A DNA stretch of 64,000 nt from Chaetoceros tenuissimus (Eukaryota > Bacillariophyta > Thalassiosirophyceae > Chaetocerotales > Chaetocerotaceae), in assembly GCA_021927905.1 (NCBI GenBank), contig BLLK01000047.1:1-64000 (forward strand), in the 5' to 3' direction. The notes beneath the pieces are model-generated. The model did not search any database, had not been told where the DNA came from, and worked only from the letters and a program-made list of their open reading frames with translations. Positions 5,484-62,783 of the stretch are shown here, piece after piece. Made by a program: the position numbers and the translations under genes. Each line of letters opens with the position of its first letter. Position 1 is the first letter of the stretch.

Positions 5484-5520
5484 TTCTTCGTCGCCTCGTC
5501 TCTTAGCGACGTCATTGTTT
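5484..5520. promoter_or_regulatory. Conserved upstream box with GACGTCA core (module 1)
   Basis: GCGACGTCATTG at 5506-5517, preceded by GCCTCGTCTC, is almost identical to boxes at 8823-8850 and 12194-12221, each at the same place between the - strand LRR gene and the + strand ankyrin gene. The GACGTCA core resembles bZIP/CRE-type sites, which in diatoms have been linked to CO2/cAMP control. Function here is inferred from position and conservation. Confidence 0.5.
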
Positions 5521-5686
5521 AATCTATTAGATTACCTATACAATAGGTTATGCATGAAATAACTTGTCCATTTTCGACAGACGAAATCTCAAATTATAAG
5601 ATGATCTCTCTGTTGATATCATATCATATATGAATATATACAAGCTGTATTATCGACGCCACTCCATCTATCTATATCAACATTCC

Positions 5687-7675
5687 ATGTCAGCGAGAAA
5701 GAGAATGAGACTAGAAGGCGACGGCAGCAGTTCCGATCATAAAATGCTACTCGAGCCGTCTGCTACTATGAATGACTTACCATCTGAAGTGATGAAGAAC
5801 ATCTTTAGTTTTGTCGGCAAAGGAAATTACTGCTTCGTTGCACCAGTTTCGAAAGACTTTTGCTTCAACTATCTAACAATGGATGTGATTGAAGATAAAT
5901 TTGCACACAAGATGGACTACCTACAGGCTATTGGAAAGAATAAATTGACGACAGTAGAGGCAGCTTCAAGTTCATTTCAGATGGCGGAATATTGCTTTTT
6001 CAAAGCACCGGAAAGATTCCAGTGGAAAACACTTCGTAAAGCAATAAGGAAAGGAAGAACAGATATTGCATATATTGGACATGCCATGGGGATCGATGTA
6101 AAGGAAGTAACGCGTTATTATACCGGAGGGATTTTTCGTGAAATTGCACAAAAAGGTAATTTGGAGATGTTTAAATTACTGCTAGAAAAGGGTGTTGACA
6201 TTCATTCGACTGTCAAGTCGAAATTCATTATTCGTGATGCTGCTAGTAGTAATCAATTACAACTTCTGAAGTGGTTACATAGAAACAATGTCTGTCAAGA
6301 TGAGCACAAATCTATTGTTTTTATGGAAGCAGTAAAAAGTGACAATGTACAATTGTTTCAATGGGCGCAAAATGTTTTCAACTGCCGAAATGCTACTGCT
6401 AGAATTGAATTGGTAGAAAGAAATGATTTGATAAACGTTGCAACAGAAAGTGACGGACTTGAACTCATCCAATACTTTCGAAGCCAACAGTTATCTTGGG
6501 GCGAACAAACGTTTCGTATTGCAGCAAGAATTGGGAATATTGCATTGCTTGAATACCTGTTGGAAAATGGATGTTCTCATGACGACCCTTTGATATGCTC
6601 CAATGCAATCGAAATAAATAATCATGAAAAGGCATCAGAAGTGCTCAAATGGTTACACGAGCATAATATACCTTGGAATGAGAAAACTTGCGCGACAGCA
6701 GCAGGTAAGGGTAATCTGATAGCATTGAAGTACGCAAGATTGAATGGTTGTCCATGGAATGCAGAGTGTCTAGAAAAAGCTGTAAATTCTTGCAATCTAG
6801 AAGTAGTGGAGTTCTGTCTTCAAAATGGCTGCCCTATTGGAAACAGAGACATATGTTCCATTGCAATACGTGACAAAGATCATGATCGAGCATTGAAGAT
6901 GTTGAAAGTGCTCCGGGAGTTTTCAGTACCATGGAGCTCAAAAACATGCTCGGTTGCTGCTAGCGTCGGTAACTTTACAGCATTGAAATGGTGCGTTTCT
7001 CATGGATGTGGTTGGGATAGAAAAAGGTGTGCAAATTATGCTGCTGGACGTGGTAATATTGAAACATTGAAATGGATGAGGTCGCAAGGCTGTGAATGGA
7101 GTGATGGTATTGGTGCAAGTGCTGCATATAAAGGGCACATCGAGACATTAAAGTTTCTCAGATCTCAAGGTTGTCCAATGGGTAGAAATACTTTTCTTCA
7201 TGCAATTTCATCCAAAAAAATTGCCACCGTTGAATACTGTATAGAAAACGACGTTCCATTTGATGAAGAACTTTATCAACGTGCAATTGATGTGCTTCCT
7301 GATCCTATTCCTATCATAAAACTACTCCGAGATAGCGGTTATCCCTGGCATCCAAGCGCATGTGCTCAAGCTGCTACAAATGAAGATCTCAAACTCCTTC
7401 GTTGGTTGCGGTTTAATGGATGCCCATGGGATGAGAGTGTATGCAATGAGGCAGTGAAATATAGTAATTTGCAAATATTGAAGTATGCACGTGAAAATGG
7501 ATGTGCTTGGTCCAAAAAGACTTATGCATATTGTTTTTCTGAAGATGGTCTAGAGAATGAATTTTATGACATCCCAACTGCAGACGATATTGAATGTTCA
7601 AAAGAAATCTTTGAGTATATTCAAGAGCAAAAGTGTCCAAAGCCAGATTCAAGTGATTGGAATATAACTTTTTGA
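5687..7675 (+). CDS. F-box-like / ankyrin-type repeat protein (copy 1)
   Basis: Intronless, 662 residues from the ATG at 5687. That start is chosen because every relative begins M-[S/T]-x-A-R-K-R-M-R-L-E; the frame is open further upstream to 5630. Residues about 30-65 (LPSEVMKNIFSFVGKGNYCF, then VSKDFCFNYL) look like an F-box. The rest is a long run of ankyrin-type units of 30-35 residues with a G-C-P-W or W-L-H-E-H-N-I-P-W signature, as known in large protist and giant-virus ankyrin families, ending in a conserved CPKPDSSDW tail. The likely role is a substrate adaptor of a cullin-RING ubiquitin ligase, inferred from architecture only. It shares its upstream region with the LRR relic at 4911-5466 and is near-identical over its first two thirds to the gene at 9016. 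Confidence 0.85.
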   Translation: MSARKRMRLEGDGSSSDHKMLLEPSATMNDLPSEVMKNIFSFVGKGNYCFVAPVSKDFCFNYLTMDVIEDKFAHKMDYLQAIGKNKLTTVEAASSSFQMAEYCFFKAPERFQWKTLRKAIRKGRTDIAYIGHAMGIDVKEVTRYYTGGIFREIAQKGNLEMFKLLLEKGVDIHSTVKSKFIIRDAASSNQLQLLKWLHRNNVCQDEHKSIVFMEAVKSDNVQLFQWAQNVFNCRNATARIELVERNDLINVATESDGLELIQYFRSQQLSWGEQTFRIAARIGNIALLEYLLENGCSHDDPLICSNAIEINNHEKASEVLKWLHEHNIPWNEKTCATAAGKGNLIALKYARLNGCPWNAECLEKAVNSCNLEVVEFCLQNGCPIGNRDICSIAIRDKDHDRALKMLKVLREFSVPWSSKTCSVAASVGNFTALKWCVSHGCGWDRKRCANYAAGRGNIETLKWMRSQGCEWSDGIGASAAYKGHIETLKFLRSQGCPMGRNTFLHAISSKKIATVEYCIENDVPFDEELYQRAIDVLPDPIPIIKLLRDSGYPWHPSACAQAATNEDLKLLRWLRFNGCPWDESVCNEAVKYSNLQILKYARENGCAWSKKTYAYCFSEDGLENEFYDIPTADDIECSKEIFEYIQEQKCPKPDSSDWNITF

Positions 7676-7830
7676 GAAAAAAATCCTCTAGGTGTTGATA
7701 AACGAACAAATGCTTGTGCTTTGAGATTTGCAATGGCGTTGTCAATGTCAAAATTTAAATCTTCGTTACGAACACGTATAATATATTATACGATTCCAAT
7801 GCTAAATTTTTATTTTATTTTTATAGTAAC

Positions 7831-8661: not shown

Positions 8662-9015
8662 CCTCTCTCAGATTTCTTCCCTTTCAAACCTTCCTTTTGG
8701 AGTATGAACAGGGCTCAGTTCTGATCTCTAAAGAAACGATTGCAACAATAAAGCTTTGTCAACTATATCTAGTTACTATGGTATCGTTTTATTATTGTCT
8801 ATTGCCATAGCTTTTCACTTTTCGCCTCGTCTCATGGCGACGTCATTGTTTAATCTATTAGATTACCTATACAATAGGTTATGCGCAGGGAACTTGTCCA
8901 CTTTCGACAGACGAAATCTCAAATTCTAGATGATCTCTCTGTTGATATCATATCATATATGAATATATACAAGCTGTATTATCGACGCCACTCCATCTAT
9001 CTATATCAACATTCC
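8662..9015. promoter_or_regulatory. Divergent promoter region between LRR and ankyrin genes (module 2)
   Basis: This 354-bp region contains no gene. It holds the conserved box at 8823-8850 (GCGACGTCATTG at 8837-8848). From about 8808 to the start codon it is nearly identical to 5467-5686, so the promoter was copied together with the module. Confidence 0.55.
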
Positions 9016-11004
9016 ATGTCAGCGAGAAAGAGAATGAGACTAGAAGGCGACGGCAGCAGTTCCGATCATAAAATGCTACTCGAGCCGTCTGCTACTATGA
9101 ATGACTTACCATCTGAAGTGATGAAGAGCATTTTTAGTTTTGTCGGCAAAGGAAACTACGCTCTTGTCGGCCCAGTTTCGAAAGACTTTTGCTTCAACTA
9201 TCTAACAATGGATGTGATTGAAGATAAATTTGCACACAAGATGGACTACCTACAGGCTATTGGAAAGAATAAATTGACGACAGTAGAGGCAGCTTCAAGT
9301 TCATTTCAGATGGCGGAATATTGCTTTTTCAAAGCACCGGAAAGATTCCAGTGGAAAACACTTCGTAAAGCAATAATGAAAGGAAGAACAGATATTGCGT
9401 ATATTGGACATGCCATGGGGATCGATGTAAAGGAAGTAACGCGTTATTATACCGGAGGGATTTTTCGTGAAATTGCACAAAAAGGTAATTTGGAGATGTT
9501 TAAATTACTGCTAGAAAAGGGTGTTGACATTCATTCGACTGTCAAGTCGAAATTCATTATTCGTGATGCTGCTAGTAGTAATCAATTACAACTTCTGAAG
9601 TGGTTACATAGAAACAATGTCTGTCAAGATGAGCACAAATCTATTGTTTTTATGGAAGCAGTAAAAAGTGACAATGTACAATTGTTTCAATGGGCGCAAA
9701 ATGTTTTCAACTGCCGAAATGCTACTGCTAGAATTGAATTGGTAGAAAGAAATGATTTGATAAACGTTGCAACAGAAAGTGACGGACTTGAACTCATCCA
9801 ATACTTTCGAAGCCAAGAAATATCATGGGGCGGACAAACGTTCCGTATTGCAGCAAGAATGGGGAATATCGCATTGCTTGAATACCTATTTGAAAATGGA
9901 TGTTCCCATGACGATTACATGATATGTCCCAATGCAGTCAAAATAAATAATCATGAAAAGGCATTAGAAGTGCTCAAATGGTTACACGAGCAGAATATAC
10001 CTTGGAATGAGAAAACTTGCGAATTCGCCGCTAAAAATGGTAATCTGAAAGCTTTGAAGTACGCAAGATTGAATGGTTGTACATGGAATACAGAGTGTCT
10101 AGAAAAAGCTGTAAATTCTTGCAATTTAGAAGTAGTGGCGTTTTGTCTTCAAAATGGCTGCCCTATTGGAAATAGTGACATATGTTCCATTGCAGTACGT
10201 GACAAAGATCATGATCGAGCATTGAAGATGTTGAAAGTGCTCCGGGAGTTTTCAGTACCATGGAGCTCAAAAACATGCTCGGTTGCTGCTAGCGTCGGTA
10301 ACTTTACAGCATTGAAATGGTGCGTTTCTCATGGATGTGGTTGGGATAGAAAAAGGTGTGCAAATTATGCTGCTGGACGTGGTAATATTGAAGCATTGAA
10401 ATGGATGAGGTCGCAAGGCTGTGAATGGAGTGATGGTATTGGTGCAAGTGCTGCATATAAAGGGCACATCGAGACATTAAAGTTTCTCAGATCTCAAGGT
10501 TGTCCAATGGGTAGAAATACTTTTCTTCGTGCAATTTCATCCAAAAAAAATGCCACCGTTGAATACTGTATCGAAAATGACTTCCAATTTGACGAAGATC
10601 TTTATAAAGATGCTATTGAAGATATTCCTGATCCTATTCCTGTCATCAAACTTCTCCGAAATAGCGGTTATCCCTGGCATCCAAGCGCATGTACTCAAGC
10701 TGCTACAAATGAAGATCTTAAACTCCTTAGATGGCTACGGTTCAATGGCTGTGCATGGGATGAGAGTGTCTGCAATGAGGCGGTGAAGAATAGTAATTTG
10801 AAAATATTGAAGTATGCACGTGAAAATGGATGCCCTTGGTCCAAAAAGACTTATGCATATTGTTTCAGTGAAGATGGTCTAGAAAATGAATATGATGACA
10901 TCCCAAATGCAGACGATATTGAATGCTCAAAAGAAATCTTTGAGTATATTCAAGAGCAAAAGTGTCCAAAGCCAGATGCAAGTGATTGGAATATAATTTA
11001 TTGA
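9016..11004 (+). CDS. F-box-like / ankyrin-type repeat protein (copy 2)
   Basis: 662 residues from the family ATG at 9016 (frame open from 8881). It is a tandem duplicate of the gene at 5687, offset 3329 bp. The first 300 residues differ at only a handful of sites (for example GNYALVGPVSK for GNYCFVAPVSK), and the C-terminal third is more diverged. Domains are the same: F-box-like segment at residues 30-65, then ankyrin-type units with repeated W-L-H-E-Q-N-I-P-W and G-C-P-W signatures, ending CPKPDASDW. Divergence is patchy rather than even along the gene, which suggests gene conversion or mosaic exchange between paralogs. Role inferred as for copy 1. Confidence 0.85.
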   Translation: MSARKRMRLEGDGSSSDHKMLLEPSATMNDLPSEVMKSIFSFVGKGNYALVGPVSKDFCFNYLTMDVIEDKFAHKMDYLQAIGKNKLTTVEAASSSFQMAEYCFFKAPERFQWKTLRKAIMKGRTDIAYIGHAMGIDVKEVTRYYTGGIFREIAQKGNLEMFKLLLEKGVDIHSTVKSKFIIRDAASSNQLQLLKWLHRNNVCQDEHKSIVFMEAVKSDNVQLFQWAQNVFNCRNATARIELVERNDLINVATESDGLELIQYFRSQEISWGGQTFRIAARMGNIALLEYLFENGCSHDDYMICPNAVKINNHEKALEVLKWLHEQNIPWNEKTCEFAAKNGNLKALKYARLNGCTWNTECLEKAVNSCNLEVVAFCLQNGCPIGNSDICSIAVRDKDHDRALKMLKVLREFSVPWSSKTCSVAASVGNFTALKWCVSHGCGWDRKRCANYAAGRGNIEALKWMRSQGCEWSDGIGASAAYKGHIETLKFLRSQGCPMGRNTFLRAISSKKNATVEYCIENDFQFDEDLYKDAIEDIPDPIPVIKLLRNSGYPWHPSACTQAATNEDLKLLRWLRFNGCAWDESVCNEAVKNSNLKILKYARENGCPWSKKTYAYCFSEDGLENEYDDIPNADDIECSKEIFEYIQEQKCPKPDASDWNIIY

Positions 11005-11245
11005 GAAATGAATTGAATTCACCTCCCCGGTGTAGACAAACGAACAAATGGTGGTGCTTCTCTAACTAAATATACCCACTAATGACTACTAATAAGGTGA
11101 AATACAGTGATGGCTGAGGATGACACCAAACCTTGAGAAGCAATGCCATCCAATCTTCTAGACCAACACCTTAAATCTTCGGTATATAAATGTATTGAAA
11201 GATTCCACAATTTTAGATTCACAATATATTTATTTTTATACTAAC

Positions 11246-21621: not shown

Positions 21622-24333
21622 TTATAGAAGATGAGTCTTCGGTACTCCTAAATTATTCAATTCCTCATTACAATTCACGAAGTAATTTGGATCTGGAAAT
21701 CCATGACAACTGAGTCCCCCGCTAAGACTTGTTTTATGGTGAATGCTTGCCCATGTGCACTGATTTGGTACTCCTGATGTAGCCGAAGTACCAACTGTAA
21801 AAGTGAGTCCCCTTGAAAATGCATACTTCAACCGCTTGAGCAAATCTTGACCTTCTCGATTGTTTGGAAGATATGCTGTCGCCCTCTTCGATCCATGGGT
21901 GACACCTGGATTATCATGATAGCTCTTTTGTTTACTAGATTTCATGGAATAATTGATGACAATGGATCCACAGTTATAACCTCCACATTTACTATGAGTT
22001 GTCGAAATAATCATGGTTCCGGATGGTGATTTGCCTTGAGGTTCAGATAGAGCCTTGCGACAGATTGGACACTGAGGTTTCATTTTGAGAGACTGTTCAA
22101 TACAATCAGTGTGAAAGAAATGGTTGCATACTTTCAATGATATGACTGGTTGTGGTGAACGCAAGGCAGACATGCAAATAGCGCAATCTTCTTTTGGAGC
22201 AAGATTAGAATTGAAAACCCGAATAAATGCAGATTGAGATACACTCTTTTTGAAATTCTTGGGTGCTTTGTATGTGAGAGAACAGACTGAAGAAGGCTGA
22301 TTTTGCATAGAGTTTGGCGCAGTATATGCTGGCATGGGCGTAGGCGGAATGCCTTGCAAAGTTTGAGCAGCTTGAGCAACAGCCGACATGATGCTTGAAG
22401 TCCATGCTGATGAAAGTCCCAGAGATGGTGGTCTAGTAAAATTATTCCCGACTCCACTTGCAACTTGTCGAGCATAACCAAATGCTCCAGACCTTTTGCT
22501 AGAACCCGATGGCTTCGACTTCATTGCGTCCTCATCATTGCAGAGGTCATCAATAATCTTTTGTAGTTCATCGTGTAGATAAGCAATGCACTTGAGTCCA
22601 TTTGGCTGTGAAAGAAGGCTTCCATTATATTTCACCATTGGTAAACACTGGGAAGCTTTCCGTAAAACAAATTCGTGACGCGCATCACTTGAAGGCCAAT
22701 TATTCCCATGAGCAGTCTTGTCTCCAATGATGGTATTTGCGGAATCAGTTTCAGGGCTTTCTCCGTTAACCAAACGTGCTAGTCCCATATCCATCGGAAC
22801 TCTCACTGTATTGCCTTGCAGACGAGCAACAACCAATCCAATATTACCATAGGAACTAAAGTTGGAAGGATTATTGGCTGTATAGATCCCATCACCAAAC
22901 ACTGCACCTTTAGAAGTTGCAGAAATATTTGAATTTGTCCGCTCCTGTCTCGACATGAGGCCATTGGTTCTAATATGATGCATATTGTTTGAGTCCGTAT
23001 AATGATATCCAATATCAATATACGTCGGAATAGAGTTCCTAGCAGAAGTTGCAACTCCATTACCACCCAAAACATAATTCTTGTTTGTCCCGAATTCTTG
23101 TTGCTGTTCCAACAGTCTCTCGGATAAAAACACCAGATCGTCCACGGCAACGGTCTCAATAGATGACAAAGTGACTAAATGCGAATACTCACGATGTGAT
23201 TTCAAATTTTCTACTAGTGCTACAATTCTCTGAACCAACAAGTAAGCCTTTCCAGTAATATTCTTTGTCATTTCTTCATGTTCCTTTTCCGCATCAGCCT
23301 TGGTGAAAGATTTATCCTCCTCTTGTTGAAGCAAATGAGCGAGGGCTTGATCCGATTCTTCCTTTTGATTGCGAAGAGATTGTTGATGTTTGATTTTCTT
23401 ATCCTCTTCCTGTTGACGTTTCATTGCTAGTAATGTATCTGCTTGCTGCTTTCTGTCAAGTTTGGCTTGTTTCCGTTCCTCCTCTTGCTCCTGTTGAAGT
23501 TTCATTGCAAATGCTATATCTCTTGCTTCCTCTGCGGTAGGTTTTGAGTCTAGATAGCTTTGTGAATGCTTGAAGTTTGCATCTTCTCGACTTCTCTTAG
23601 AAACAGATCTTGACTTCTTTGCTTGATTCTTTCTAGAACTATTGAATGGAGGATCGCCATTACAAATTTGACAACTGATATCCGTCATTGAATTTGAAAA
23701 TGTACATCGTGTACAATTCCACGAATCGTTTTCCTTATCCGATCTACCATGTACATTATGAATTGAGGAATTGCTCCGTTTCAAAGAGTCAGCTTTTGCA
23801 CTGTAGAAATCTACATCTGAAGAATCATCAACTAATGAATCATCATCTGAAGAATCATCAACGCAAAGCGTAAGTTTTCTTTTCTCACGCTCATCTTGAC
23901 GTGAAGATGTCACAAATGGCTTCTCATTGCTCGAGCTACGTTTCAAATTGTTGCAATATCCCAAAGTGTATCTAGCTATTTCAGAATTATATGAATCTGC
24001 CGAGTCATTGTCTGAATCATCGACATCTAGAGTCACTTTTTTTCTAATCATCGATCTTCCTCTTTCGGTAGTATCACTCGTCTCTTGACTTGTAGGCCAT
24101 GACCGCTTCTTCATTTTCAATTGAGGCGACGGTGTAAGCTCTCGTTCCATCAGTTGTCGTTTTCTATTCTGAGGCTGACCATCGACATCTTTGCTTGAAT
24201 TCCTTTTTCTAGATTCTAGAGTCTTGTTGATGGCTTGCTGATTGCTCTTGCCCTTTTTATCTTTGTCGTCCAACACGATGATGCTTTCGTCATCGCTGCT
24301 AATGTCTATTGCTATAATTTCCGATGGACTCAT
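21622..24333 (-). CDS. RanBP2-zinc-finger / PARP-like / RING-H2 / Deltex C-terminal domain protein
   Basis: 903 residues, intronless, ATG at 24333. Order of parts: acidic Ser/Asp-rich low-complexity N-terminus (1-200); RanBP2-type zinc finger WNCTRCTFSNSMTDISCQIC (about 210-230); long Gln/Glu/Lys coiled coil with ALAHLLQQEE-type, UIM-like motifs (265-355); PARP-catalytic-like domain (about 430-590) with YHYTDSNNMHHIRTNGL and GAVFGDGIYTA; RING-H2 CAICMSAL-HFFHTDC-CPIC (about 720-765); and a Deltex C-terminal domain from GTMIISTTHSKCGGY through ATAYLPNNREGQDLL, FTVGTSATSG and TWASIHHKTS to GFPDPNYF at the end. In animals PARP9 and DTX3L supply the PARP and RING-DTC parts as separate proteins of one complex. 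The likely role is a ubiquitin E3 ligase coupled to ADP-ribosylation, inferred from domains; activity of the PARP part is unproven. Confidence 0.85.
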   Translation of the reverse strand: MSPSEIIAIDISSDDESIIVLDDKDKKGKSNQQAINKTLESRKRNSSKDVDGQPQNRKRQLMERELTPSPQLKMKKRSWPTSQETSDTTERGRSMIRKKVTLDVDDSDNDSADSYNSEIARYTLGYCNNLKRSSSNEKPFVTSSRQDEREKRKLTLCVDDSSDDDSLVDDSSDVDFYSAKADSLKRSNSSIHNVHGRSDKENDSWNCTRCTFSNSMTDISCQICNGDPPFNSSRKNQAKKSRSVSKRSREDANFKHSQSYLDSKPTAEEARDIAFAMKLQQEQEEERKQAKLDRKQQADTLLAMKRQQEEDKKIKHQQSLRNQKEESDQALAHLLQQEEDKSFTKADAEKEHEEMTKNITGKAYLLVQRIVALVENLKSHREYSHLVTLSSIETVAVDDLVFLSERLLEQQQEFGTNKNYVLGGNGVATSARNSIPTYIDIGYHYTDSNNMHHIRTNGLMSRQERTNSNISATSKGAVFGDGIYTANNPSNFSSYGNIGLVVARLQGNTVRVPMDMGLARLVNGESPETDSANTIIGDKTAHGNNWPSSDARHEFVLRKASQCLPMVKYNGSLLSQPNGLKCIAYLHDELQKIIDDLCNDEDAMKSKPSGSSKRSGAFGYARQVASGVGNNFTRPPSLGLSSAWTSSIMSAVAQAAQTLQGIPPTPMPAYTAPNSMQNQPSSVCSLTYKAPKNFKKSVSQSAFIRVFNSNLAPKEDCAICMSALRSPQPVISLKVCNHFFHTDCIEQSLKMKPQCPICRKALSEPQGKSPSGTMIISTTHSKCGGYNCGSIVINYSMKSSKQKSYHDNPGVTHGSKRATAYLPNNREGQDLLKRLKYAFSRGLTFTVGTSATSGVPNQCTWASIHHKTSLSGGLSCHGFPDPNYFVNCNEELNNLGVPKTHLL

Positions 24334-25953: not shown

Positions 25954-28005
25954 TTAAGGTATATCCCAGTCGTTTGGGTCTGGTTGCGGACAGTTGTGCT
26001 TTTGAAGATATTCAAATACTTTTTGTGAACAAATGATTTGGTAAGTTGTTTCAGTTGGAATCTCTACAAAGGCATCATCTAGACCCTCGTCAGAAAAACA
26101 ATATGCATATGTTTCTTTAGTCCAAGGGCATCCATTCTCATGGGCATATTTCAACATATCCAAGTCACTACCCTTCACACACCAGTTACAGACATTCTCA
26201 TCCCATGGACAACCATTGAATCGTAGCCAACGAAGGAGTTTGAGGTTACCATCATATGCAGCTCGAGTGCACGCATCTGCATGCCACGTATACCCGCACT
26301 TCCGAAGTAGCTTCATAATATATATTGGATCATGACAACATTCAATAAAATCTTCATACACTCCTTCTTCCTCAAAAGGAAAGTCATTCTCAATGCAATA
26401 TTGTATGGTGTCAACATTTTTGGAAAGAATTGCATTTCGAAATGTCTCTTCGTTCACTGGGGACCCTTCAGCACGAAGCCATTGTAAAACTTCAAGATTA
26501 TCATTAGAAGCAGCCAAGGCGCATGTTTCTTCATTATTGAACTGAAAGCCTTCAGACTTCAACCATTTTAGCGTTTTAATATCACCATGTTCAGCTGCGT
26601 AATTTGCACACTTGAGCATGTCTAATAGATAGCCTTCAGATCTTAGCCATTTCAAGCCTTCCAACTTCCTAGAAACTGCACTGACCAGTTCTTCATCCCA
26701 AGGTCCCGAAAAACTCCGCAATAATTTTAGCATTCTGAATGGTCGATCATAATCACAATCTTCATAAGGCCACAAACATATCTGAAGAACACTTTCAACA
26801 CTAATATCATCATCTTCATCATCTTCATCATCTTCTTCGACACTTGTAGGGCAATTATTTCGCAGGCAATACTCAACTACTTCAAAATGAAGATTGCGAA
26901 TACCATTTACAAAGGATACAGAATTCCATGGACAACCTTTTGATCTCATGTATTGCAAAGCCTTTAGATTGCCATATTCGGCAGCACTTGAGCAAGTCTT
27001 CTCATCCCAAGGAAAGCCATGCTCATGGAGCCATTTTAGCAACTCTACCGCCTTTTCGTGATTCTTGCTGCTAACTACATTGGAACATATACGAGGGTCG
27101 TCATGGGGACACTCATTTTCAAAAAGATATTGAAGCATTTCTATATTTCCACTTCTTGCTGCATAATAAAATGTATTGGGGGTCCATGGAGTTTTGGGTA
27201 GGTTCCAAGGTAAGTCATCGCTTCGAAAATATTTGACGAGCTCCACATTTCCACTTGCTGCTGCATCATTCATAAAATTTTTCATTAAAGGTTTGCTTGG
27301 TCTAGCCCATTTTATAGTCCATTTGAATATTGCCATTTGACCACATTTCGCTGCAGATGAAAATAAATCCATGATATATGTAGGCTGCAACTTTTTGAAC
27401 TTTTTGTGTTTACGTAACCATCTCAAAATTTCCAAATTATTATTGCAAGCAGTAGAATCAATTATTTGCCTCAATTCCCATTGGTGTTCAGGGAGTAATC
27501 CCTTCTCGTGTAAATACTGTAACATTTTCAAGTCCCCTTTTTGAGTAATCGAGTTGAAAGATTTCATGTTTCTTTGCATGGCTTTCTTCACATCTATCCC
27601 CATAGCATGTCCTAATTCCAATATGTCCAACTTTCCTTTACTCGCTACATTCCTGACTACTTCTTCTTGAAAGTCTTCTGGCGCTTTCAAAAAGCAATCT
27701 TCAGCCAAAGCAAATGAAAATGAAGCAGCCTCCGCTGTAGTAAACTTATTCCTTCCGATAGCTTGAAGATAATCCAGTTTATGCGCAAATTTATCTTCAA
27801 TGACATCCATAGTTAGATAGTTGTAGCAAAAGTATTTGGATACCGGACCAATAAAGCAATAGTTGCCTTTACCAACAAAACTAAAGATATTCTTTATTAA
27901 ATCGTCAGGCATATCAATGATGGTAGCAGACGGCTCGAGCTCTAGGGCTTCATCCGAAGTGCTGCCGTCTTCGAGTCTCATTCTCTTTCTAGCTTGAGTC
28001 ATCAT
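25954..28005 (-). CDS. F-box-like / ankyrin-type repeat protein (copy 6)
   Basis: 683 residues (two adjacent ATGs at 28005 and 28002; relatives favour the second), intronless. Start MTQARKRMRLEDG, F-box-like segment MPDDLIKNIFSFVGKGNYCF, then ankyrin-type units (WLHEHGFPW, QYMRSKGCPW, WLRFNGCPW), ending CPQPDPNDWDIP. It has a private acidic insertion (EEDDEDDEDDD) around residue 420 where relatives read CPIGNSDIC, probably from expansion of a GAT/GAA run. Opposite orientation to copies 1-5, so the family also spread by inversion. Confidence 0.85.
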   Translation of the reverse strand: MMTQARKRMRLEDGSTSDEALELEPSATIIDMPDDLIKNIFSFVGKGNYCFIGPVSKYFCYNYLTMDVIEDKFAHKLDYLQAIGRNKFTTAEAASFSFALAEDCFLKAPEDFQEEVVRNVASKGKLDILELGHAMGIDVKKAMQRNMKSFNSITQKGDLKMLQYLHEKGLLPEHQWELRQIIDSTACNNNLEILRWLRKHKKFKKLQPTYIMDLFSSAAKCGQMAIFKWTIKWARPSKPLMKNFMNDAAASGNVELVKYFRSDDLPWNLPKTPWTPNTFYYAARSGNIEMLQYLFENECPHDDPRICSNVVSSKNHEKAVELLKWLHEHGFPWDEKTCSSAAEYGNLKALQYMRSKGCPWNSVSFVNGIRNLHFEVVEYCLRNNCPTSVEEDDEDDEDDDISVESVLQICLWPYEDCDYDRPFRMLKLLRSFSGPWDEELVSAVSRKLEGLKWLRSEGYLLDMLKCANYAAEHGDIKTLKWLKSEGFQFNNEETCALAASNDNLEVLQWLRAEGSPVNEETFRNAILSKNVDTIQYCIENDFPFEEEGVYEDFIECCHDPIYIMKLLRKCGYTWHADACTRAAYDGNLKLLRWLRFNGCPWDENVCNWCVKGSDLDMLKYAHENGCPWTKETYAYCFSDEGLDDAFVEIPTETTYQIICSQKVFEYLQKHNCPQPDPNDWDIP

Positions 28006-33428: not shown

Positions 33429-33837
33429 GTTTATCAATACCCAATAGCTCTAACCAAGAAAGAAATTTAAGTAAGTGAATATTTGTTTGACTAGTGACAG
33501 TTTGGTGTGATTATACCTCGCATGTGCTTCGGCCTCTGCAATGAAGGTGCACAAACTGATGACATATAAAACGAGGTCCGAATATGAAACGGATAATGGA
33601 AAGTACTTGTGTTATACAACACAGTACACCTTGGCTCACGGATGGAAAGAACCTCTCTATTTAAACCTTATGTTTATAGAGAGCCCAACCAATAGCTTAG
33701 AACTCAGTCTGATCAACTGGAGTTATGGTTGGGAGCTCAGCAGAAGCCTATGGAGCAAGTAACCGTGTGAGCATTCCTATGGAATGAAATCAAAATATTT
33801 TGCTAATAAAATTTTCCAAATTTACCAAATAAATAGA
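33429..33837 (+). other. Leader region of the copia element
   Basis: Between 5' LTR and gag. It should hold the primer-binding site directly after 33428; I could not assign the primer tRNA. A 73-codon open stretch at 33541 is not recognisable. Confidence 0.4.
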
Positions 33838-35277
33838 ATGGATGATATTCCAACTTTCACTGCATTTGTGCAAAATGTTCTAGGCGTAGCCGTTGTAAGA
33901 GCTCGCACTGAACTTGTTGCTTATATTCCAACATTTAGACGATTGATGACAATCTCAGAAGAAGACATTGATAGATTCATTTCACAAGTCCATTCTTCCA
34001 ACTCTGGTCGCGCTGCTGCTCAGCGTATTGTGTATGGGCCTGCTTTGGCTGCGAATCTTAAGGCATTATCTTTCACTCTTAAAGATAGAGCAAGCTGTAA
34101 TGCTCTCTACGATGCTGCAGGTCTTGCTGCCTTGGATCAAGCCCAGTTAGCTCTCATGCAGAATTATCGTGACCAAGCACTACAAGATAAAGATAATGAT
34201 GATGCTGTAACTCTACCAGATATCGATGTGCCAAAGTTTACTACAGACAATTATGATGATTTTATGGCTAAATTCCTAACTGTCGTCTCACGTACAAAAG
34301 GTGTACATGGCGTATCTATCGATTACATTATTCGTCAAGCTGATGGAAATTTCAATGACATTCATCCAACTCGAAAGTTGAAGATGAGAGCATGTTTGGC
34401 CAGAAGAGGTCCGAAATTCCAAGAAGACTCCAAGACTCTCTTCGGCTTGTACCTCCAGTACATTGGTACAACAGGACATGGAGCAAATCTTGTGAAACAG
34501 TTTCAACCTCGTCATCAAGGCTTTAATTTGCACTTTGCTTTTGTTAATCACTTTGCAAATGCTACACACCTTCAAAACAAAGCAGCTCAAGCTGCAACAG
34601 ACTTGACTAAACTGAATTACTCTGGAGATAAGATGCGCTTCAAAATGGAAGATTATTATAATCGTATGACACAGTGTTTCAATGACTTAGCAAATGGTGG
34701 TGCCCAGTATGCTTTGAATGATCACCAGAAGATCCAGGCTTTCTGTCAGGGATTGAAGAATATCACTGCAATCAGATACCATGTGGATGCAAAGCAGGCA
34801 TGGGATGCCATTCAAGGACCAAAAGATTTCGACACCTATTACAATTTGTTCTCGTCTAAACTTCAACAATATCGTACTTTGGCGGGAGATGGATCACATA
34901 CTGACAATAGACGAATTAATAATGTTGATACAGGAGGTAGAGGCAGAGGACGTGGTGGACGATTTGGAAGAGGAGGTGGCAGAGGTCGTGGTCGTGGCCG
35001 TGGTAGAGGTAGAGGCTCTTACCACAATAATAATCCTTACCACAATTCCCCAGGTCTTCCTAACTTTACTGCAGAGGCTAGGAACTACCCTCAAGAGATG
35101 TTTTCCAAGATGTCCAAAATGCAGAAGGCTGCTGTACAACAAGCGAAAATCGATAATGGGTGGAAAGATGGCCGTACACCACCTGATGGCTTTACTGTAA
35201 ATGGTGACGGTTATGCCATTCCTTCCCCGAGCATTGTTGCTGCGATTCAGTCTCAAATGAATATTAGACACTGCTGA
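33838..35277 (+). CDS. Copia Gag-like protein
   Basis: The probable start is MDDIPTFTAF at 33838 (frame open from 33784). About 480 residues: a helical capsid-like region, then an RGG/GRGRG-rich stretch (33936-35020 downstream part, about residues 360-400) that probably replaces the zinc knuckle for RNA binding. The frame stops at TGA 35275; a coding-like continuation (Pro-rich LPPPPPPPPAAPPIPG) lies in another frame from 35271 to 35492, suggesting a one-base lesion or a programmed shift. Confidence 0.75.
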   Translation: MDDIPTFTAFVQNVLGVAVVRARTELVAYIPTFRRLMTISEEDIDRFISQVHSSNSGRAAAQRIVYGPALAANLKALSFTLKDRASCNALYDAAGLAALDQAQLALMQNYRDQALQDKDNDDAVTLPDIDVPKFTTDNYDDFMAKFLTVVSRTKGVHGVSIDYIIRQADGNFNDIHPTRKLKMRACLARRGPKFQEDSKTLFGLYLQYIGTTGHGANLVKQFQPRHQGFNLHFAFVNHFANATHLQNKAAQAATDLTKLNYSGDKMRFKMEDYYNRMTQCFNDLANGGAQYALNDHQKIQAFCQGLKNITAIRYHVDAKQAWDAIQGPKDFDTYYNLFSSKLQQYRTLAGDGSHTDNRRINNVDTGGRGRGRGGRFGRGGGRGRGRGRGRGRGSYHNNNPYHNSPGLPNFTAEARNYPQEMFSKMSKMQKAAVQQAKIDNGWKDGRTPPDGFTVNGDGYAIPSPSIVAAIQSQMNIRHC

Positions 35278-35492
35278 CCCCTGGTGCTGGTACACCACTT
35301 CCACCACCACCACCGCCTCCGCCAGCTGCTCCTCCTATTCCTGGAACCATCACTACCAATAATGCAGGTCAAGCTTTTGGCTCGTCTGCATCAAGGGGAG
35401 GAAATGGTGATGCTTCTAGTATTATTTCTACTGTCAATGGTCGGGCATACAATGGACATGTGTATGATGCGAACGGTAATAGAATCTCCTGA

Positions 35493-38400
35493 ATGATATG
35501 CCAGTTGTTACTGATGACTGGCCTATTTCTCTTGTTCCGTAGACTGTTTCGGGAACTATTGCTTCGTTCCACTTGTACTCCAACTCATGCAATTAGAGCG
35601 TTCATTACAACTACCATCTCTGCAACTAGATCATCCTTTGATATTGAATCCTTTGTGCATCCTACTTTGACTGCAAATGAACATCAGCGTGGTACGAGAC
35701 TTGGTATCGACTCATGGGCAGATACAAATTGTGCTGGAAAACATGCCTTTGTCGAAGAGTTTGTTGTTGACAAGTTTGTTACTGCTGGTGGATTCAGTGC
35801 TTCACTTGGAACCATCCCAGATTTACCCATTGCAAATGTGCTCTACGCTTATGATACTGATGATAGCAAGACATACATCATCGAATGCAATAACTCAATA
35901 TACCTTGGTGATAGGATGGATGACTCTTTGATGAATCCGATACAGGCGGAAGAGTCTGATGTAAGGGTTGATACGAGACCTAAGCGATATTACTCTGATC
36001 CACATGCACAAACCATAAGTTTTCCCTGTGGTACCATGATTCCTGTAGAATATGATGGGGCACTGCCGTTCATTCCTATTCGTCGTCCTACTGCTGATGA
36101 AATTCATATCTGTCCAAGACTTGTCATGTCAGCTAAGTTCCCTTGGGATCCTAGTGTTCCTGGTGGTAACTTCTCTCAGCCAAGATCTGTATTCTCTACT
36201 TCTTCAAGTATCCTTGATTCAGTGCAAGATGATCCAGTTGGATCTTCTCTCATGTCACTGCATCTGCTATCTGCTGTGTAATCAACTTCTGTACTCCATC
36301 CACATGAGGATACCTTTAAGTCATTACAAGCGATGAATTCGTATAAGAGCAAAGAAAGTATCAGTCCTGAGGAGTTGGCACGGTTGCTCAAGATCGGCTT
36401 GAAGACTGCCCAGAGAACTTTGCAGGCAACCACTTCGAAATTCATTAGAACTACTGGTGCTCTCTCTCGGCGTTTCAAGACTGACAAGGTTCAGCTCCGA
36501 TATAAACAATTGTCTAGAATCTTCGGCAAGTTTTATTGTGACTATCTCAAGGTCAATGCTACTTCGATTCGTGGATACAAAGGAGGAGTCATCTATACTA
36601 ATGGACTTGGTTTCTATAAGTTTCTTCCATGTGAAAATGAGACTTCTGAAACTACTGGTAGGACTCTTAGGTACTTCCTGCACGTTGTAGGTCTGCCGTA
36701 TAGTTTGCACTCTGATAACCATGGTAACTTCAAGGATGGACTCTTCAAGAGATTGATGAGGAAATTCGGAGTTTACCAGACCTTCACTGAGCCACACTCG
36801 CCATGGCAGAATAGGGCTGAGCCGGCTATTGGAGAGGTCAAGAAATATGCTAGAAAGATTATGATGAGTACTGATACACCTATTCGCCTTTGGTGCTTTT
36901 GTTATGAGTATACTGCTGACCTCTTATCACTTCTGGCAACCGCACTGTTCGATCTCCAGGGGAGAACGCCGTACGAAATGATTATGCACTACACTCCGGA
37001 TATCTCAGAATATGTATCATTTGGTTGGTTTCAGTGGTGTTACTACTTTGATGAGGACTCCAAAAGTAAGAAGATCTGCCGTTGGTTGGGTCCTGCTCAT
37101 GAGGTAGGACAGTCTTTCTGTCACTGGATACTTCTAAGCAACGGAAATTTTATAGCTCGATCATCTGTCATTCCTATACCGGATCATGAGCTAGAGTCTG
37201 ATGAATTAAAGCGCCGTACCAAGATCTTCATGGATTGTATACATGAGAAAATTGGAAATACAAAGGTACCAATCTATAACAATATCTACCCTCAGCGTGT
37301 TTACTATGATGCTTTTGACGACCCTGTCGAGGATGATGAGAGTCAATTACCATATGGCGAAGAACTGCATGAAGCTAAGCTTGAAGATGTCAATGATAGA
37401 TATCTCGAGGCACTTGACAATTACATTAATTCTGAGGTCATCATGCCTGACAAGGATGGTACTGCTGTACTTACCAAAGTGAAAGGTCGTAAGCGTGATG
37501 CTGCAGGTAACCCTGTAGGAGAGGCAAATGAAAATCCTATTCTTGATACCAGAGTCTATGAACTAGAATTTCCAGATGGCAGGATTGAGGAATATGCAGT
37601 CAATATGATTGCAGAGAACCTATTTGAGCAAGCTGACGAGGACGGCTGGGACAGTGGTATCATTGAGGAATTTCTAGACATTCGCAAGGACGATTCTGTA
37701 GCTGTACCCAAAGAACAAGGCACGTACTTTAACAGTGCTGGAGTTGAGAGGAACGTTGTAACAACCAAAGGATGGGAAGTCCAAGTCAAATGGAGAGACA
37801 AGTCTACGAGCTGGATTTCACTTAAAGACGCAAAGGAAGGTGATCCACTAGGTCTAGCTGAATTGGCTGTAGCATTGAAAGTACAAGATGAGCCTGCCTT
37901 TAAGTGGTGGACCAATCATGCCTTGAGACAACGAGCCCGACTGATCTCAAGATTGAAATCAAATGTTATTAGAAAAGGCAAGACTAAGTTTGGGATACAG
38001 GTTCCTGGCACATGGAAGGAAGCTGTCAAGATTGATGAAGCAAATAATAATACGCTCTGGCAGGACGCCATCAATAAAGAAATGGTCAATGCTAAATGTG
38101 CTTTCAAGTTATTGGCTCGAGGAGATAGACCGCCGCCTGGGTACAATGAGATACTGTGCCACTTGGTATTCGATGTCAAGCTGGATATGACTCGAAAAGC
38201 AAGATATGTTGCTGGAGGACACTTAACTAACGTTCCCGCAAATATGACCTATTCTAGTGTTGTCTCAAGAGATACAGTTCGAATCGGATTCCTTGTGGCT
38301 GCTCTTAATGACCTTGATATATTAGCTGGTGACATCCAGAATGCTTTTCTTTCTGCTCCTACGGAAGAGAAAATATTCTTCTATGCAGGAGATGAATGGG

Positions 38401-39722
38401 GTGCTGATAAGGACCGTGTAGTCGTTGTAGTCCGTGCTCTATATGGTCTCAAATCTAGTGCTTTACAATTTCGTAATCATCTTGCCGCAACACTTGGTAA
38501 CAAGCTTGGCTTCAAGTCCTGTCTCGCTGATCCTGATCTATGGTACAAAGCATGCATCGATTCCAATGGAAATGAGTATTACTCATACATTCTCGTATAT
38601 GTTGATGACCTGTTGATTATTGATAAGAATCCAAAGCGATTTATGGAACAGATCCAAGGTGACTTCACTGTCAAGAAGGAGAGCATCGGTCCTCCTGACA
38701 GATACCTAGGAGCTGACATCAGAAAAGTTGAGGATGATGGTGCCAAGCCATTTTGGACTATGAGTTCTAATTCCTATCTTGACAAGGCCATTAAGAACCT
38801 TAAGGCTAAGCTCAAGGAGAGCGGTTTGGAATACAACAAGAAACTTTCTGATCCGAATTACAGTCCAAAGCAACCATTTACTACTGCATCTTATCGACCT
38901 GAACTTGATACTTCTGAAGAATGTACTGATGACCAAGTTACTCTATTTCAGAACCTAATTGGGATATTGCGATGGGCAGTAGAACTTGGTAGGATCGATA
39001 TTGGATATGAGGTATCAGTTTTGTCTAGATATTTAGTTTCACCAAGGACTGGACATCTCTTACAAGCCATTCATGTATTCAAGTTTCTTGACATTCATAA
39101 GGACAACGAGTTAGCCTTTAGACCGAATTTGCCAAATCTAAGTCTCAATTACGAGGAGATCAATGAACAGACAACGTATATGAAGAAGGCATATCCTGAC
39201 GCTGTTGAAGATTTACCTCCTAACGCACCTGTTCCAAGAGGGAAACCATTGTCCATGTATGTGTTCGTGGATAGTGATCATGCTGGTGATAAGATAACTA
39301 GGAGATCCCAGACTGGCATTCTATTATATTTGAATTCTGCTCCAATTATTTGGTATTCTAAGAGGCAAGCGACTGTTGAATCATCTACCTTTGGATCCGA
39401 ATTTGTCGCACTCCGCGTTGCATCTGAATTGATCATTTCTATGAGATATAAGCTTCGTATGATGGGAGTTCCAATTGAGGGTCCGACTCATGTCTTTTGT
39501 GATAATGAGGCTGTTTACAAGAATTCTTCAATTGCTCATTCAACTTTGAAGAAGAAACATAATTCTATTTGTTTTCATCGAGTACGAGAATGTGTTGCTG
39601 CTGGTATCCAAGTTGTACACAAGGTTGACACTGCTGACAATTTATCTGACATTCTAACGAAATCATTGCCTGCTCATATTAGGAAGAATCTACGATCCTT
39701 AATCATGTATATCAGGAACTAA
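35493..39722 (+). pseudogene. Copia pol polyprotein with one in-frame stop
   Basis: One frame covers all of pol. Protease-like GIDSWADTNCAG (about 35700-35745, with DTN in place of the usual DSG). Integrase with Asp in YCDYLKVNA, Asp in LHSDNHGNF and Glu in AIGEVKKYAR. Reverse transcriptase with DIQNAFL and the catalytic YVDDLL (about 38600). RNase H with FVDSDHAGD and the typical SRRSQTG/ESSTFGSEF region. The frame is cut only by TAA at 36279-36281 between protease and integrase. Either this copy is dead, or readthrough or a sequencing error is involved. Confidence 0.85.
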
Positions 39723-39967: not shown

Positions 39968-40283
39968 CTATCTTGTGTGTGATGGATAAATTGTGGATAC
40001 TACCTTCCTACGTACATAATTATACACATGTTCAAGAAAACATGTGTCTATACCTAAATTAGCTACTCTGACTTCGCCACAAAAACTTTTTGGATTTGGT
40101 TCTACAAAGAAAAAGAAAAGCCCGATGCCATCAAAAAGTCTCATATTTTTAAGAATGTAGTGGGAAAAAAAACAGTTTCTTTTATAAGAACTAGACCATT
40201 TTCTGCAAAAGCAATCCAAAAAATATGGCGGTTGTTTTCTAATTAAAATTTTCAAAATTATTCATCCCATTTCAAAGCTGAAC
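39968..40283. other. Region without recognisable gene
   Basis: 316 bp, AT-rich. Probably 3' untranslated sequence of the large minus-strand gene ending at 40284. Confidence 0.3.
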
Positions 40284-43200
40284 TTATACTGGACATGCAA
40301 TTGGACAGTAGTAATAAGAAGTCGCATCTTTTGGACAACGGATAGAGCTCTTCTTCCCGAACCATGTACAATCTTTGGTTACGCCGAGAATAGAACTAAT
40401 CCAAAGTGCATCGTCAACGCCTTGTCCACTACATGCATTTGGACATTTTGCATAAGATTCAGAATCCTTTGGACATCTATTCCTTGCTCGCTTCTTGAAC
40501 CAAGCACAATTACCTTTGGTGTTGAAATTCGAACTTTTAGTTACCCAACCATCAGTATTCTTTCTACATTCACCTCCACACACACCTTTACAATTTTCTC
40601 TTGCTCCGGTTTTATAACATCTTCTTGTTGGTCGCTTAGCTACCCATTCGCAGTTCTTGTTAGCTTTATCCTTGAATAGCCATTCATCATTTGCGCAATC
40701 ACATCTATTACATGTTTGAGGACAGAACTGAAATACAAAAGCATTGTTCTTGGTGCTATCTTGCTTGACACATCTCTTACTTGGATTATTTCCTATCCAA
40801 GCACAGTTTCTTTGGTTACGATTTCCTAAACGAAAGCTATCATCATCTACACAGAATGGTTCTTCATTCAATGATACAGATGGAATGGAAGAAGGACTAT
40901 CAGAAGAAGCGATAACTGGCTTACTACTTGGACTGTCGCTTGAAAGATCAACTGGAGACGAAGAAGGTTCCGAAGATGGAAGTAGACTCGGCTCAAACGA
41001 CGGATTATTCGATGAGAAAGTGCTAGGCTGACTTGATGGAAGCAATGAAAGCTCTAAAGAAGGAAGCGATGAAGGCCCAGACGTGATCTCTGTTGGATTT
41101 TCAGAAGCAATATGTTCAGCGCTTGGAGCATTAGAAGCTAATTTTGTAGGAGATTTAGACAACGAAGGCAAGCTACTAGGTAACTTGCTCGGAATATGCG
41201 AAGGTGTTGCAGAAGCAAGCTTACTTGGGCTTTGTGAAGGCATCAGAGACGGAATCAATGATGGCGCTTCGCTTGGAAGTTCTGATGCAGCAACTATGAC
41301 AGAGATACCATTGTTTTGAGCTTCTTCTTCAATTGCCGATGCCACATTATTCAATTTTGTTTGACTTGTAGCATCATTCTCGGAAACTTTGCTTTCAATA
41401 GTTGCTTGTACACTGAAGTCCCCAACTTCCAAGAATCTTATTTTTTTCACTAAAAGATTTCTTCTTTGTGAACTGATAACTTCAAGTATGATAGAAGTTA
41501 CATTAACAGGGGCGAAAGCCAATCTAATTCCTTCTCTTATTGCATTTTCTAATTCTTGAGTCAATGCTATTTGACCTCGTAAACTAATAACTATTTCAGA
41601 AATAGAAGAATCGGAAAGAGTAGGAAGAAAAGAAATAGATGGTAAGGATGATGGAATCGAAGAAGGATTTGTAGAAAACGATGGAATATCTGAAGGTCCG
41701 CTTGAAGGTGCTTCACTGCTATCGGTTGGACTAACACTTGGTACAGAAGACGGACTCAAAGAAGGCTTGTCGCTGCTCATTGACGGAAAATCACTCGAAA
41801 GAGACGTAGGTCCGCTTGAAGGTGCTTCACTGCTATCTGACGGATTGTCACTTGGTACAGAAGACGGACTCAAAGAAGGCTTGTCGCTGCTCATTGAAGG
41901 ACTCTCACTCGAAAGAGACGTAGGTCCGCTTGAAGGTGCTTCACTGCTATCTGACGGATTGTCACTTGGTACAGAAGACGGACTCAAATAAGGCTTGTCG
42001 CTGCTCATTGAAGGACTCTCACTCGAAAGAGACGTAGGTCCGCTCGAAGGTGCTTCGCTGCTATCGGTTGGACTCTCACTTGGTACAGAAGACGGACTCA
42101 AATAAGGCTTGTCGCTGCTCATTGACGGAAAATCACTAGAAAGGGACGTAGATCCGCTCGAAGGTGCTTCACTGCTATCTGACGGATTGTCACTTGGTAC
42201 AGAAGACGGACTCAAAGAAGGCTTGTCGCTGCTCATTGACGGAAAATCACTAGAAAGGGACGTAGGTCCGCTTGAAGGTGCTTCACTGCTATCTGACGGA
42301 TTGTCACTTGGTACAGAAGACGGACTCAAAGAAGGCTTGTCGCTGCTCATTGAAGGACTCTCACTCGAAAGAGACGTAGGTCCGCTTGAAGGTGCTTCAC
42401 TGCTATCTGACGGATTGTCACTTGGTACAGAAGACGGACTCAAATAAGGCTTGTCGCTGCTCATTGAAGGACTCTCACTCGAAAGAAGTGTAGGTCCGCT
42501 CGAAGGTGCTTCGCTGCTATCGGTTGGACTCTCACTTGGTACAGAAGACGGACTCAAAGAAGGCTTGTCGCTGCTCATTGACGGAAAATCACTAGAAAGG
42601 GACGTAGGTCCGCTTGAAGGTGCTTCACTGCTATCTGACGGATTGTCACTTGGTACAGAAGACGGACTCAAAGAAGGCTTGTCGCTGCTCATTGAAGGAC
42701 TCTCACTCGAAAGAGACGTAGGTCCGCTTGAAGGTGCTTCACTGCTATCTGACGGATTGTCACTTGGTACAGAAGACGGACTCAAATAAGGCTTGTCGCT
42801 GCTCATTGAAGGACTCTCACTCGAAAGAGACGTAGGTCCGCTCGAAGGTGCTTCGCTGCTATCGGTTGGACTCTCACTTGGTACAGAAGACGGACTCAAA
42901 TAAGGCTTGTCGCTGCTCATTGACGGAAAATCACTAGAAAGGGACGTAGATCCGCTCGAAGGTGCTTCACTGCTATCTGACGGATTGTCACTTGGTACAG
43001 AAGACGGACTCAAAGAAGGCTTGTCGCTGCTCATTGACGGAAAATCACTAGAAAGGGACGTAGGTCCGCTTGAAGGTGCTTCACTGCTATCTGACGGATT
43101 GTCACTTGGTACAGAAGACGGACTCAAAGAAGGCTTGTCGCTGCTCATTGAAGGACTCTCACTCGAAAGAGACGTAGGTCCGCTTGAAGGTGCTTCACTG

Positions 43201-49894: not shown

Positions 49895-50987
49895 ATTTTA
49901 AACACAGAGTGCAAAGCATTGGTGTTTCAGTCAGAAGTTTTTCAAAGTGATCCAAGTGCCGATGTCTATTAAGATTTGCGAAATCTTTGGAATATTTCTT
50001 AGTCATTTTGATAATCGTAAGACAAGTAGAACACTGCAAGACTTACCATTATCACATATCTTACAGTAAAAAGCATCTTTCCTATCACATTTTCTACAGC
50101 GCATATGTGTAAAGTGGATGCCTTCATGAGATTCAATTGGAAAATACATTTCCCCATAACATTTTTTCCCTCTAACAGTTCTCTGACACTTAGTCCAACA
50201 ACTCTCTACTACTTTGAATTCAATGTTATCTGGATCTATTCCTGTTGGAAATGTATCAGGTCCAAGCGATTCGGCTTTTTCGTATCTTGTGTCAAAATCC
50301 TCGTATCCTGTACTATTCCAAAATGTGCAATACCTTTTTGCTTTTTCCAAGGCATTTTTGATTTGGTCTTTTGTAAGTACTTTTGAATGATATTTCGAAC
50401 AGAAAGGAATCCCTACATATCCGTATTTGGCATTTGATACTCTTCTCCTAGTAGTTTTAGGACGCATTTTGAAGTAATGGTCATTGCCTATTTCTTCAAG
50501 CATTTCCATGCTGCGAAAGCAGTTGAATATTGTATAAGGGTGCACTTTGTCTTCCTTGAATGCTTCTAATTCTGCAATCAAATGACATATCTCCACTGTA
50601 GTCATTGCCATACTTTTACCATGAATGCACGGATGTAGTAGATGATTCTGATTATGGTGCATACCAGGAACTTCATTCTTTTTTCTTTTCATATGTTGAG
50701 TAAACAAATAAAGTGGAACATAGTGTTTATCTTCGAGACTGGTGGCACATTCGCCTCTCTCTTTAGCAGCTTTGCAATCTTCACTCAAGACTTGTAGATA
50801 CTGATGATGTAGGTGGCAGCTTTATTTTGAGACAACCAGTACTTTGATGAATGAATAATATCAAAAGACAATCACTTACATAGTTTGACATATTGATGCT
50901 TAGTGCTGTTAGGTTCTGTTGTTTTGGTGAATGGGTTGTAATTACTTCCTTTTGCTTGCTATGTTTATGATTGTAACAGCGTTTCAT
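49895..50987 (-). pseudogene. Truncated copy of zinc-cluster gene Z (5' exons only)
   Basis: Corresponds to 59367-60459 of the full gene. Exon 1 50987-50880 (start MKRCYNHKHSKQK), exon 2 from 50800 with Cys pairs (CRKCDRKDAFYCKIC). The sequence is cut at 49895, inside CTLC, where it joins gene A. The NAG-kinase-like C-terminus is absent. Confidence 0.75.
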
Positions 50988-51238
50988 TTCTCTCCTTCGT
51001 CAAGTTTCGTCGGGCTTCGTTTGGCTTTTCATGAAATCATTTGGAAATTTGTACTGGAAGTAGCTACGTGATGTTTTCACAAGGGGGGACTTGTTTCATA
51101 CAAAATCTAAATTTGGAATTTTTTGTGTTTTTTGCCACCAGTTCCAGCGTGAAAAAGCGATGCAGAGACAAAGCAAAATCAAATTCATTATCAATGCACA
51201 ACAGTACCGATTCGTTGTAATAGACCACACCTTTCATC

Positions 51239-53236: not shown

Positions 53237-53311
53237 GCTTAGAAATGAGTTTAGAAAGAAGCAAAAAGATAGATGTAGCAAAAGATATTGTATATAATTA
53301 TATATTATTAC

Positions 53312-62708: not shown

Positions 62709-62783
62709 GCTTAGAAATGAGTTTAGAAAGAAGCAAAAAGATAGATGTAGCAAAAGATATTGTATATAATTATATATTATTAC

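Follow-up and report, generated by a model that had tools for sequence, protein, structure and literature searches.

In vertebrates, a PARP-family domain is coupled to the RING and Deltex C-terminal (DTC) domains of a ubiquitin ligase through two partner proteins, PARP9 and DTX3L, and PARP9 lacks an intact His-Tyr-Glu (H-Y-E) triad. Here we describe a gene of the diatom Chaetoceros tenuissimus in which a PARP-like domain, a RING-H2 finger and a DTC domain follow one another in a single chain. The gene lies in a 64,000-nucleotide stretch of DNA (positions 1 to 64,000 of contig BLLK01000047.1, assembly GCA_021927905.1), the whole of which is called the window below. It occupies positions 21622-24333 of the minus strand as a single open reading frame (ORF) of 2,712 bases, running from ATG to stop with no internal stop codon and encoding 903 amino acids. 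A sequence-only reading had claimed PARP-like, RING and DTC domains in one intronless frame here, and the ORF has exactly the ends that it gave. From the N-terminus, the protein carries an NZF zinc finger, a low-complexity stretch rich in Glu, Lys and Gln, the PARP-like domain, a linker, the RING-H2 finger and the DTC domain.

Several described systems share parts of this layout. DTX3L has the same DTC domain and His-Glu pair as the diatom protein. In DTX2 and DTX3L, as described in the accessible sections of two reports, that pair activates ADP-ribose at its 3' hydroxyl, and ubiquitin is transferred straight from the E2 (PMC7615817, PMC10810221); the first of these sources also describes the DTC domain as able to bind ADP-ribose. 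The N-termini differ: DTX3L has D1-D3 domains, as far as the accessible text describes it, and the diatom proteins have an NZF or a region resembling subunit 2 of the COP9 signalosome (CSN2). With DTX1, DTX2 and DTX4 the diatom protein shares a RING directly followed by a C-terminal DTC domain, but it carries a PARP-like domain instead of a WWE domain, none of its 18 Pfam matches to E 1 being to WWE. A PARP catalytic domain and a ubiquitin-transfer domain do occupy one chain in fungal clade 6A PARPs, which carry an E2-like UBCc domain, and in a Dictyostelium PARP with a U-box and a macrodomain, according to the accessible part of Citarelli et al. (2010; PMC2964712). In contrast to the diatom protein, these have an E2 or U-box and no DTC domain, and so no known ADP-ribose-ubiquitylating module; a term search of that text for deltex returned nothing.

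The RING-DTC module and the zinc finger

The C-terminal module was recognized without ambiguity, as the sequence-only reading had anticipated. The DTC domain (residues 766-897, window 21643-22038; this and all further features of the gene are on the minus strand) matched Pfam PF18102 with an E value of 2.7e-41 and 141 bits against a cut-off of 25, and the RING-H2 finger (residues 716-759, window 22057-22188) matched zf-RING_2 (E 7.3e-12) as well as E3 RING chains in the PDB. The RING directly precedes the C-terminal DTC domain, the order required of Deltex RING-DTC proteins. In searches against PDB sequences, the RING-DTC segment found DTX2 with E 8.1e-30 and DTX1 with E 1.6e-24; the match of the DTC domain was to DTX3L (E 5.7e-30). 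The IHHKT and EEL positions align with those of DTX3L and DTX2, which places the equivalents of the catalytic pair at His865 and Glu891; by counting back from the length of DTX3L, we take the aligned residues to be its H707 and E733. Both residues are invariant in all nine copies of the gene family that were aligned, a tenth copy with a split DTC domain being left out. By its domains the window protein is thus a Deltex-type RING-DTC protein, predicted to transfer ubiquitin to ADP-ribose.

Near the N-terminus, residues 203-225 (window 23659-23727) form a zinc finger whose best match is the NZF of TAB2 (E 1.7e-4), followed by the fingers of Nup153 (E 0.008). The Pfam match to the RanBP-type finger over the same residues is sub-threshold (E 0.0035, 17.0 bits against a cut-off of 27). 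The finger fits the W-x-C-x2-C-T-F ... C-x2-C pattern of NZFs, and its Thr-Phe dipeptide is a feature of those that bind ubiquitin. The sequence-only reading had named it a RanBP2 finger; the finger itself stands, and the label of a RanBP2 RNA-binding finger was dropped in favour of NZF, the TAB2 match being better. The finger probably binds ubiquitin. Following it, at about residues 265-360, is the Glu-, Lys- and Gln-rich stretch, read off the sequence, in which candidate motifs of the MIU ubiquitin-binding type can be noticed; the sequence-only reading had listed a putative coiled coil after the finger.

The PARP-like domain

The middle domain (residues 430-590, window 22564-23046) contains the residues expected of a PARP triad, His444, Tyr484 and Glu554, in the motifs HYT, FGDGIYTA and HEFVL...SQC. 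To these we compared the related domains of the same genome, taking the eight of ten gene copies in which the domain is complete and leaving out two broken copies that miss part of it. H, Y and E are invariant in all eight, although the domains are as little as 34% identical. The genome also encodes, besides this family, two clear PARPs above the Pfam cut-off: a WGR-PARP_reg-PARP gene (L026:561-2300) and a PARP with four GRF-finger matches (L025:1055-2509). Because this genome has PARPs, the report that diatoms lack them, made for the two species searched, Phaeodactylum and Thalassiosira, in the accessible text of PMC2964712, is not general.

A profile built from the eight family members was aligned locally to these two PARPs. 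Against both together it scored 42.3 (probability 80%), exceeding all 200 column-shuffled controls (maximum 25.0) and all 29 fragments taken from other, unrelated proteins of the window (maximum 26.0). MAFFT placed the family's H, Y and E on the triads of the WGR-PARP and the GRF-PARP, and a forced global profile alignment also put the Glu on the PARP Glu.

Predicted structures pointed the same way. AlphaFold models were made of the window domain (pLDDT 61.9, pTM 0.65) and of a sister domain (pLDDT 68.0, pTM 0.70). Foldseek gave PARP10 as the best match for both, with E 0.015 and probability 0.94 for the former and E 0.0073 and probability 1.00 for the latter; among the best 50 matches of the sister domain, unrelated folds (kinesin, chorismate synthase and others) came further down the list, none with a probability above 0.11. 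In VIA comparisons the top match in both runs was the PARP domain of RCD1, with Z 8.1 for the window domain (root-mean-square deviation (rmsd) 3.8, 125 aligned residues) and Z 9.6 for the sister domain (rmsd 4.0, 131 aligned). Of the 387 and 992 chains aligned in the two runs, the best 50 in each were PARP-family domains throughout, and many other PARPs were tied with RCD1, lying within 1 of the top Z. Among the matches listed, the closest folds are PARP10, PARP14, PARP12, PARP15 and RCD1. Both models, of middling confidence, are thus consistent with a PARP catalytic fold.

A number of results weigh against this assignment. The Pfam PARP match at residues 443-496 is not significant: it scores 11.8 bits (E 0.17) in the full protein and 15.3 bits (E 0.015) with the domain alone, both below the cut-off of 26.7, and the PARP profile run against PDB sequences gave three matches, to an unrelated protein (E 1.3) and to PARP16 (E 1.7 and 1.9). 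PARPs carry glycine after the catalytic histidine (HGT or HGS), as both other PARPs of this genome do, whereas all eight family domains have tyrosine there (HYT). The paralogue profile scored 33.8 and 30.7 against each PARP singly, with probabilities of 42% and 27%; its local match spans just 41-48 columns or so, starting at the His and ending shortly after the Tyr motif, and the forced global alignment has a probability of only 18%. Both AlphaFold models have long stretches with pLDDT below 50, no Foldseek match reached E 0.001, the top ones having TM-scores of 0.36-0.47 and rmsd of 8-9.5 Å, and a VIA Z of 7 to 8 is common, by the tool's own warning. The sequence-only reading had agreed to fall if no significant PARP profile match were found; taken to the letter, the Pfam result is such a failure, but the paralogue profile and the folds speak against abandoning the claim.

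Two other identities were tried. A DarT-type ADP-ribosyltransferase (Pfam E 0.056 over the same stretch) was set aside: the GIYT motif and the E...SQ block align with PARPs, and the fold lists show PARPs, absence from those lists leaving room for related ADP-ribosyltransferase clans. Matches to Pfam Catalase_C, touching four of the eight members at E 0.043 or worse, were taken as chance. We call the middle domain PARP-like, a divergent ADP-ribosyltransferase domain whose H-Y-E triad is intact, and assign it to no named PARP clade. The parallel with PARP9/DTX3L drawn by the sequence-only reading is one of function and not an established kinship: no macrodomain, as found in PARP9, is among the Pfam matches of the window protein to E 1, the triad is intact, and the nearest folds listed are those of other PARPs.

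Gene copies and the CSN2-headed cluster

The whole genome (41,027,912 bases in 68 contigs) was searched for relatives. A DTC profile gave 11 matches, read as ten gene copies, two DTC pieces at C27:1579.0-1579.3 kilobases (kb) being counted as one broken copy. Besides the window gene, one copy lies at C27:999-1001 kb, and eight, in both orientations, form a tandem cluster at C27:1554-1588 kb (loci L017-L020 and L024), five of them intact and three broken. A PARP-like match stands just upstream of the DTC domain, in the same order, in all ten, which bears out a natural single-polypeptide arrangement; in one broken copy the match begins only at query residue 477. PARP-like, RING and DTC domains share one unbroken frame in seven copies, of 903, 812, 954, 986, 980, 1034 and 938 amino acids, and the remaining three contain stops or are split between frames. 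The linker between the PARP-like domain and the RING varies across copies yet stays open.

Among cluster paralogues, nonsynonymous distances (dN) were smaller than synonymous distances (dS) in the PARP-like, RING and DTC domains wherever dS could be estimated. For the closest full-length pair (1034 and 938 amino acids), the Nei-Gojobori method gave dN 0.17 and dS 0.52 for the PARP-like domain, 0.22 and 0.75 for the RING, 0.10 and 0.72 for the DTC domain and 0.22 and 0.42 for the CSN2-like region; for the PARP-RING linker (28 codons) the values were 0.43 and 0.59. The PARP-like, RING and DTC domains are under selective constraint in these measurable pairs; between the window gene and any other copy, silent substitutions are saturated or nearly so, and hence no ratio is given. 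In trees of the PARP-like domain and of the RING-DTC segment (seven intact copies), the window gene and the 999-kb copy separated from the cluster with support of 100/100 in each, and most other forks were open. The simplest reading is one fusion before the window gene and the 999-kb copy split from the cluster.

The cluster copies begin with a different head. Searches against the PDB with two of them matched residues 121-389 of the 954-residue copy to CSN2 (PDB 9is6 over 123-389, E 2.3e-21) and residues 19-407 of the 980-residue copy likewise (E 2.9e-22). In both, the match within the N-terminal 400 residues covers the CSN2 solenoid and PCI part; of six cluster copies scanned with Pfam PCI, a single one, at 24.0, exceeded the cut-off of 22, and the rest scored 18.5, 14.0, 12.7 or nothing. 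When the genome was searched with the 954-residue copy's N-terminus, each of the eight cluster copies matched over all or part of the CSN2-like stretch, whereas the window gene and the 999-kb copy gave no match. The cluster architecture is thus CSN2-PARP-RING-DTC, in contrast to CSN2 itself. A canonical CSN2 gene, apparently of at least two exons, lies on the same contig about 210 kb away (C27:1798.3-1799.6 kb, L031); its first open frame matches CSN2 chains with E 5e-60, and its first exon is 28% identical to the 980-residue copy over 346 aligned columns. Because this separate gene exists, the fusion uses an extra, diverged CSN2 and not the sole one. When the five intact cluster copies are compared with one another, amino acid identity ranges from 72-88% in the DTC domain through 50-74% in the PARP-like domain to 26-64% in the CSN2-like head, which, having the lowest identity, changes fastest of the domains compared. 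As a CSN2-like scaffold, the head would guide the enzyme either to cullin-RING ligases or to the COP9 signalosome. The sequence-only reading took a natural fusion in a microalga to suggest that the coupling is ancient or arose twice; the CSN2 fusion suggests that the module was recombined with other ubiquitin-system parts in this lineage, which may favour local assembly.

Among the titles and abstract openings listed by searches of the open literature, none concerned a PARP-RING-DTC or CSN2-PARP-RING-DTC protein. A search combining PARP, deltex and stramenopiles found nothing, and term searches found no such fusion in the accessible text of PMC12687431, PMC7615817, PMC10810221, PMC11467253 and PMC11354881. 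Pattern-seeded scans gave no relative confirmed by tblastn, whether in viral contigs, where the queries were the full protein and the alignments of the RING-DTC and PARP segments, or in prokaryote contigs, where RING-DTC was used; seeded by a few short patterns, and run on collections that contain no other algae as such, these scans have no bearing on other diatoms.

In the window, whose GC content is 0.36-0.47 per 4-kb block, the gene is surrounded by eight ORFs at 5630-31436 that by eye are mutually similar; the two run through Pfam contain ankyrin repeats, and the ankyrin ORF at 25954-28005 also has a weak F-box match (E 0.12). C. tenuissimus NIES-3715 has more ankyrin-repeat genes than three other diatoms, according to the accessible part of PMC8613185. 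A self-comparison of the window, covering matches of at least 400 bases and queries starting outside 40000-47500, showed that 5491-7721 and 8822-11059 are 94% identical in DNA and that 49895-54528 and 59367-64000 form a 4,634-base direct duplication, 99.98% identical and reaching the window end, which is either very recent or an assembly effect. Two further features were noted by eye: retrotransposon-like frames at 33784-39722, in which a gag-like part is followed by motifs of integrase and reverse transcriptase, and at 40284-47156 a 2,290-residue protein that consists mostly of Ser/Pro-rich repeats, has a cysteine-rich C-terminus and looks like a secreted or cell-wall protein.

Proposed mechanism and alternatives

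The domains keep their order in a single frame, and both catalytic sets are conserved. With the PARP-like triad and the DTC pair in one chain, the protein therefore has the parts to make protein-linked ADP-ribose and then to modify it. On balance we lean towards the view that the gene encodes a one-chain writer of a hybrid ADP-ribosyl-ubiquitin mark, with activities, coupling and targets as predicted from its domains. The PARP-like domain would use NAD+ to place ADP-ribose on a target or on itself, and the RING would recruit a ubiquitin-charged E2. The DTC domain would grip the ADP-ribose, His865 and Glu891 would activate its 3' hydroxyl, and ubiquitin would be transferred there. The N-terminus may pick the place of action, through ubiquitin bound by the NZF in the window gene and through cullins or the signalosome in the eight tandem copies with a CSN2-like part. 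Two macrodomain matches in the genome mark proteins that could act as erasers.

It is also possible, though we consider it rather unlikely, that the PARP-like domain is dead or a reader, as in PARP9 or plant RCD1, binding targets or NAD+/ADP-ribose, so that only the RING-DTC module is enzymatic and uses ADP-ribose made by other PARPs. The WGR-PARP and the GRF-PARP could write that ADP-ribose, the domain is divergent with HYT instead of HGT throughout, and in both models confidence is low over stretches that separate the Tyr motif from the Glu motif. RCD1 of plants, the top VIA match, is an inactive PARP, and a conserved triad alone is no proof of activity; both points count against the writer. 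Dead PARPs, however, often lose part of the triad, and here H, Y and E have persisted in all eight complete domains while identity fell to 34%.

An ordinary RING E3 that builds lysine-linked chains, its DTC domain merely recruiting ADP-ribosylated or other substrates, is improbable: a canonical RING-H2 with Arg after its last Cys, and the ADP-ribose binding cited above for the DTC domain, would suit it, but nine of nine copies retain the His-Glu pair associated with ubiquitylation of the hydroxyl. That two neighbouring genes were taken as one seems highly improbable. The frame is known here from genomic DNA alone; yet no stop interrupts its 2,712 bases, the linker is variable but open, and the same order recurs in one frame in seven copies at three genomic places.

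Returning to the one-chain writer, a broader history can tentatively be sketched. This lineage may have fused ADP-ribosylation and subsequent ubiquitylation into one enzyme, one branch of which was joined to a CSN2 duplicate and amplified as a fast-changing tandem array. The outcome would be a family of ADP-ribosyl-ubiquitin ligases directed to the signalosome or to cullin-RING ligases, which might serve as an inducible defence against algal viruses, paralleling interferon-induced PARP9/DTX3L. It is an open question which PARP feeds Deltex enzymes and whether cells couple the two steps. In this diatom, a single enzyme may unite two signalling chemistries that animals carry out with separate proteins, and a natural one-chain enzyme would make their coupling testable in a single purified protein. 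If the reading is true, the copies with a CSN2-like head would connect the hybrid mark with the control of cullin-RING ligases.

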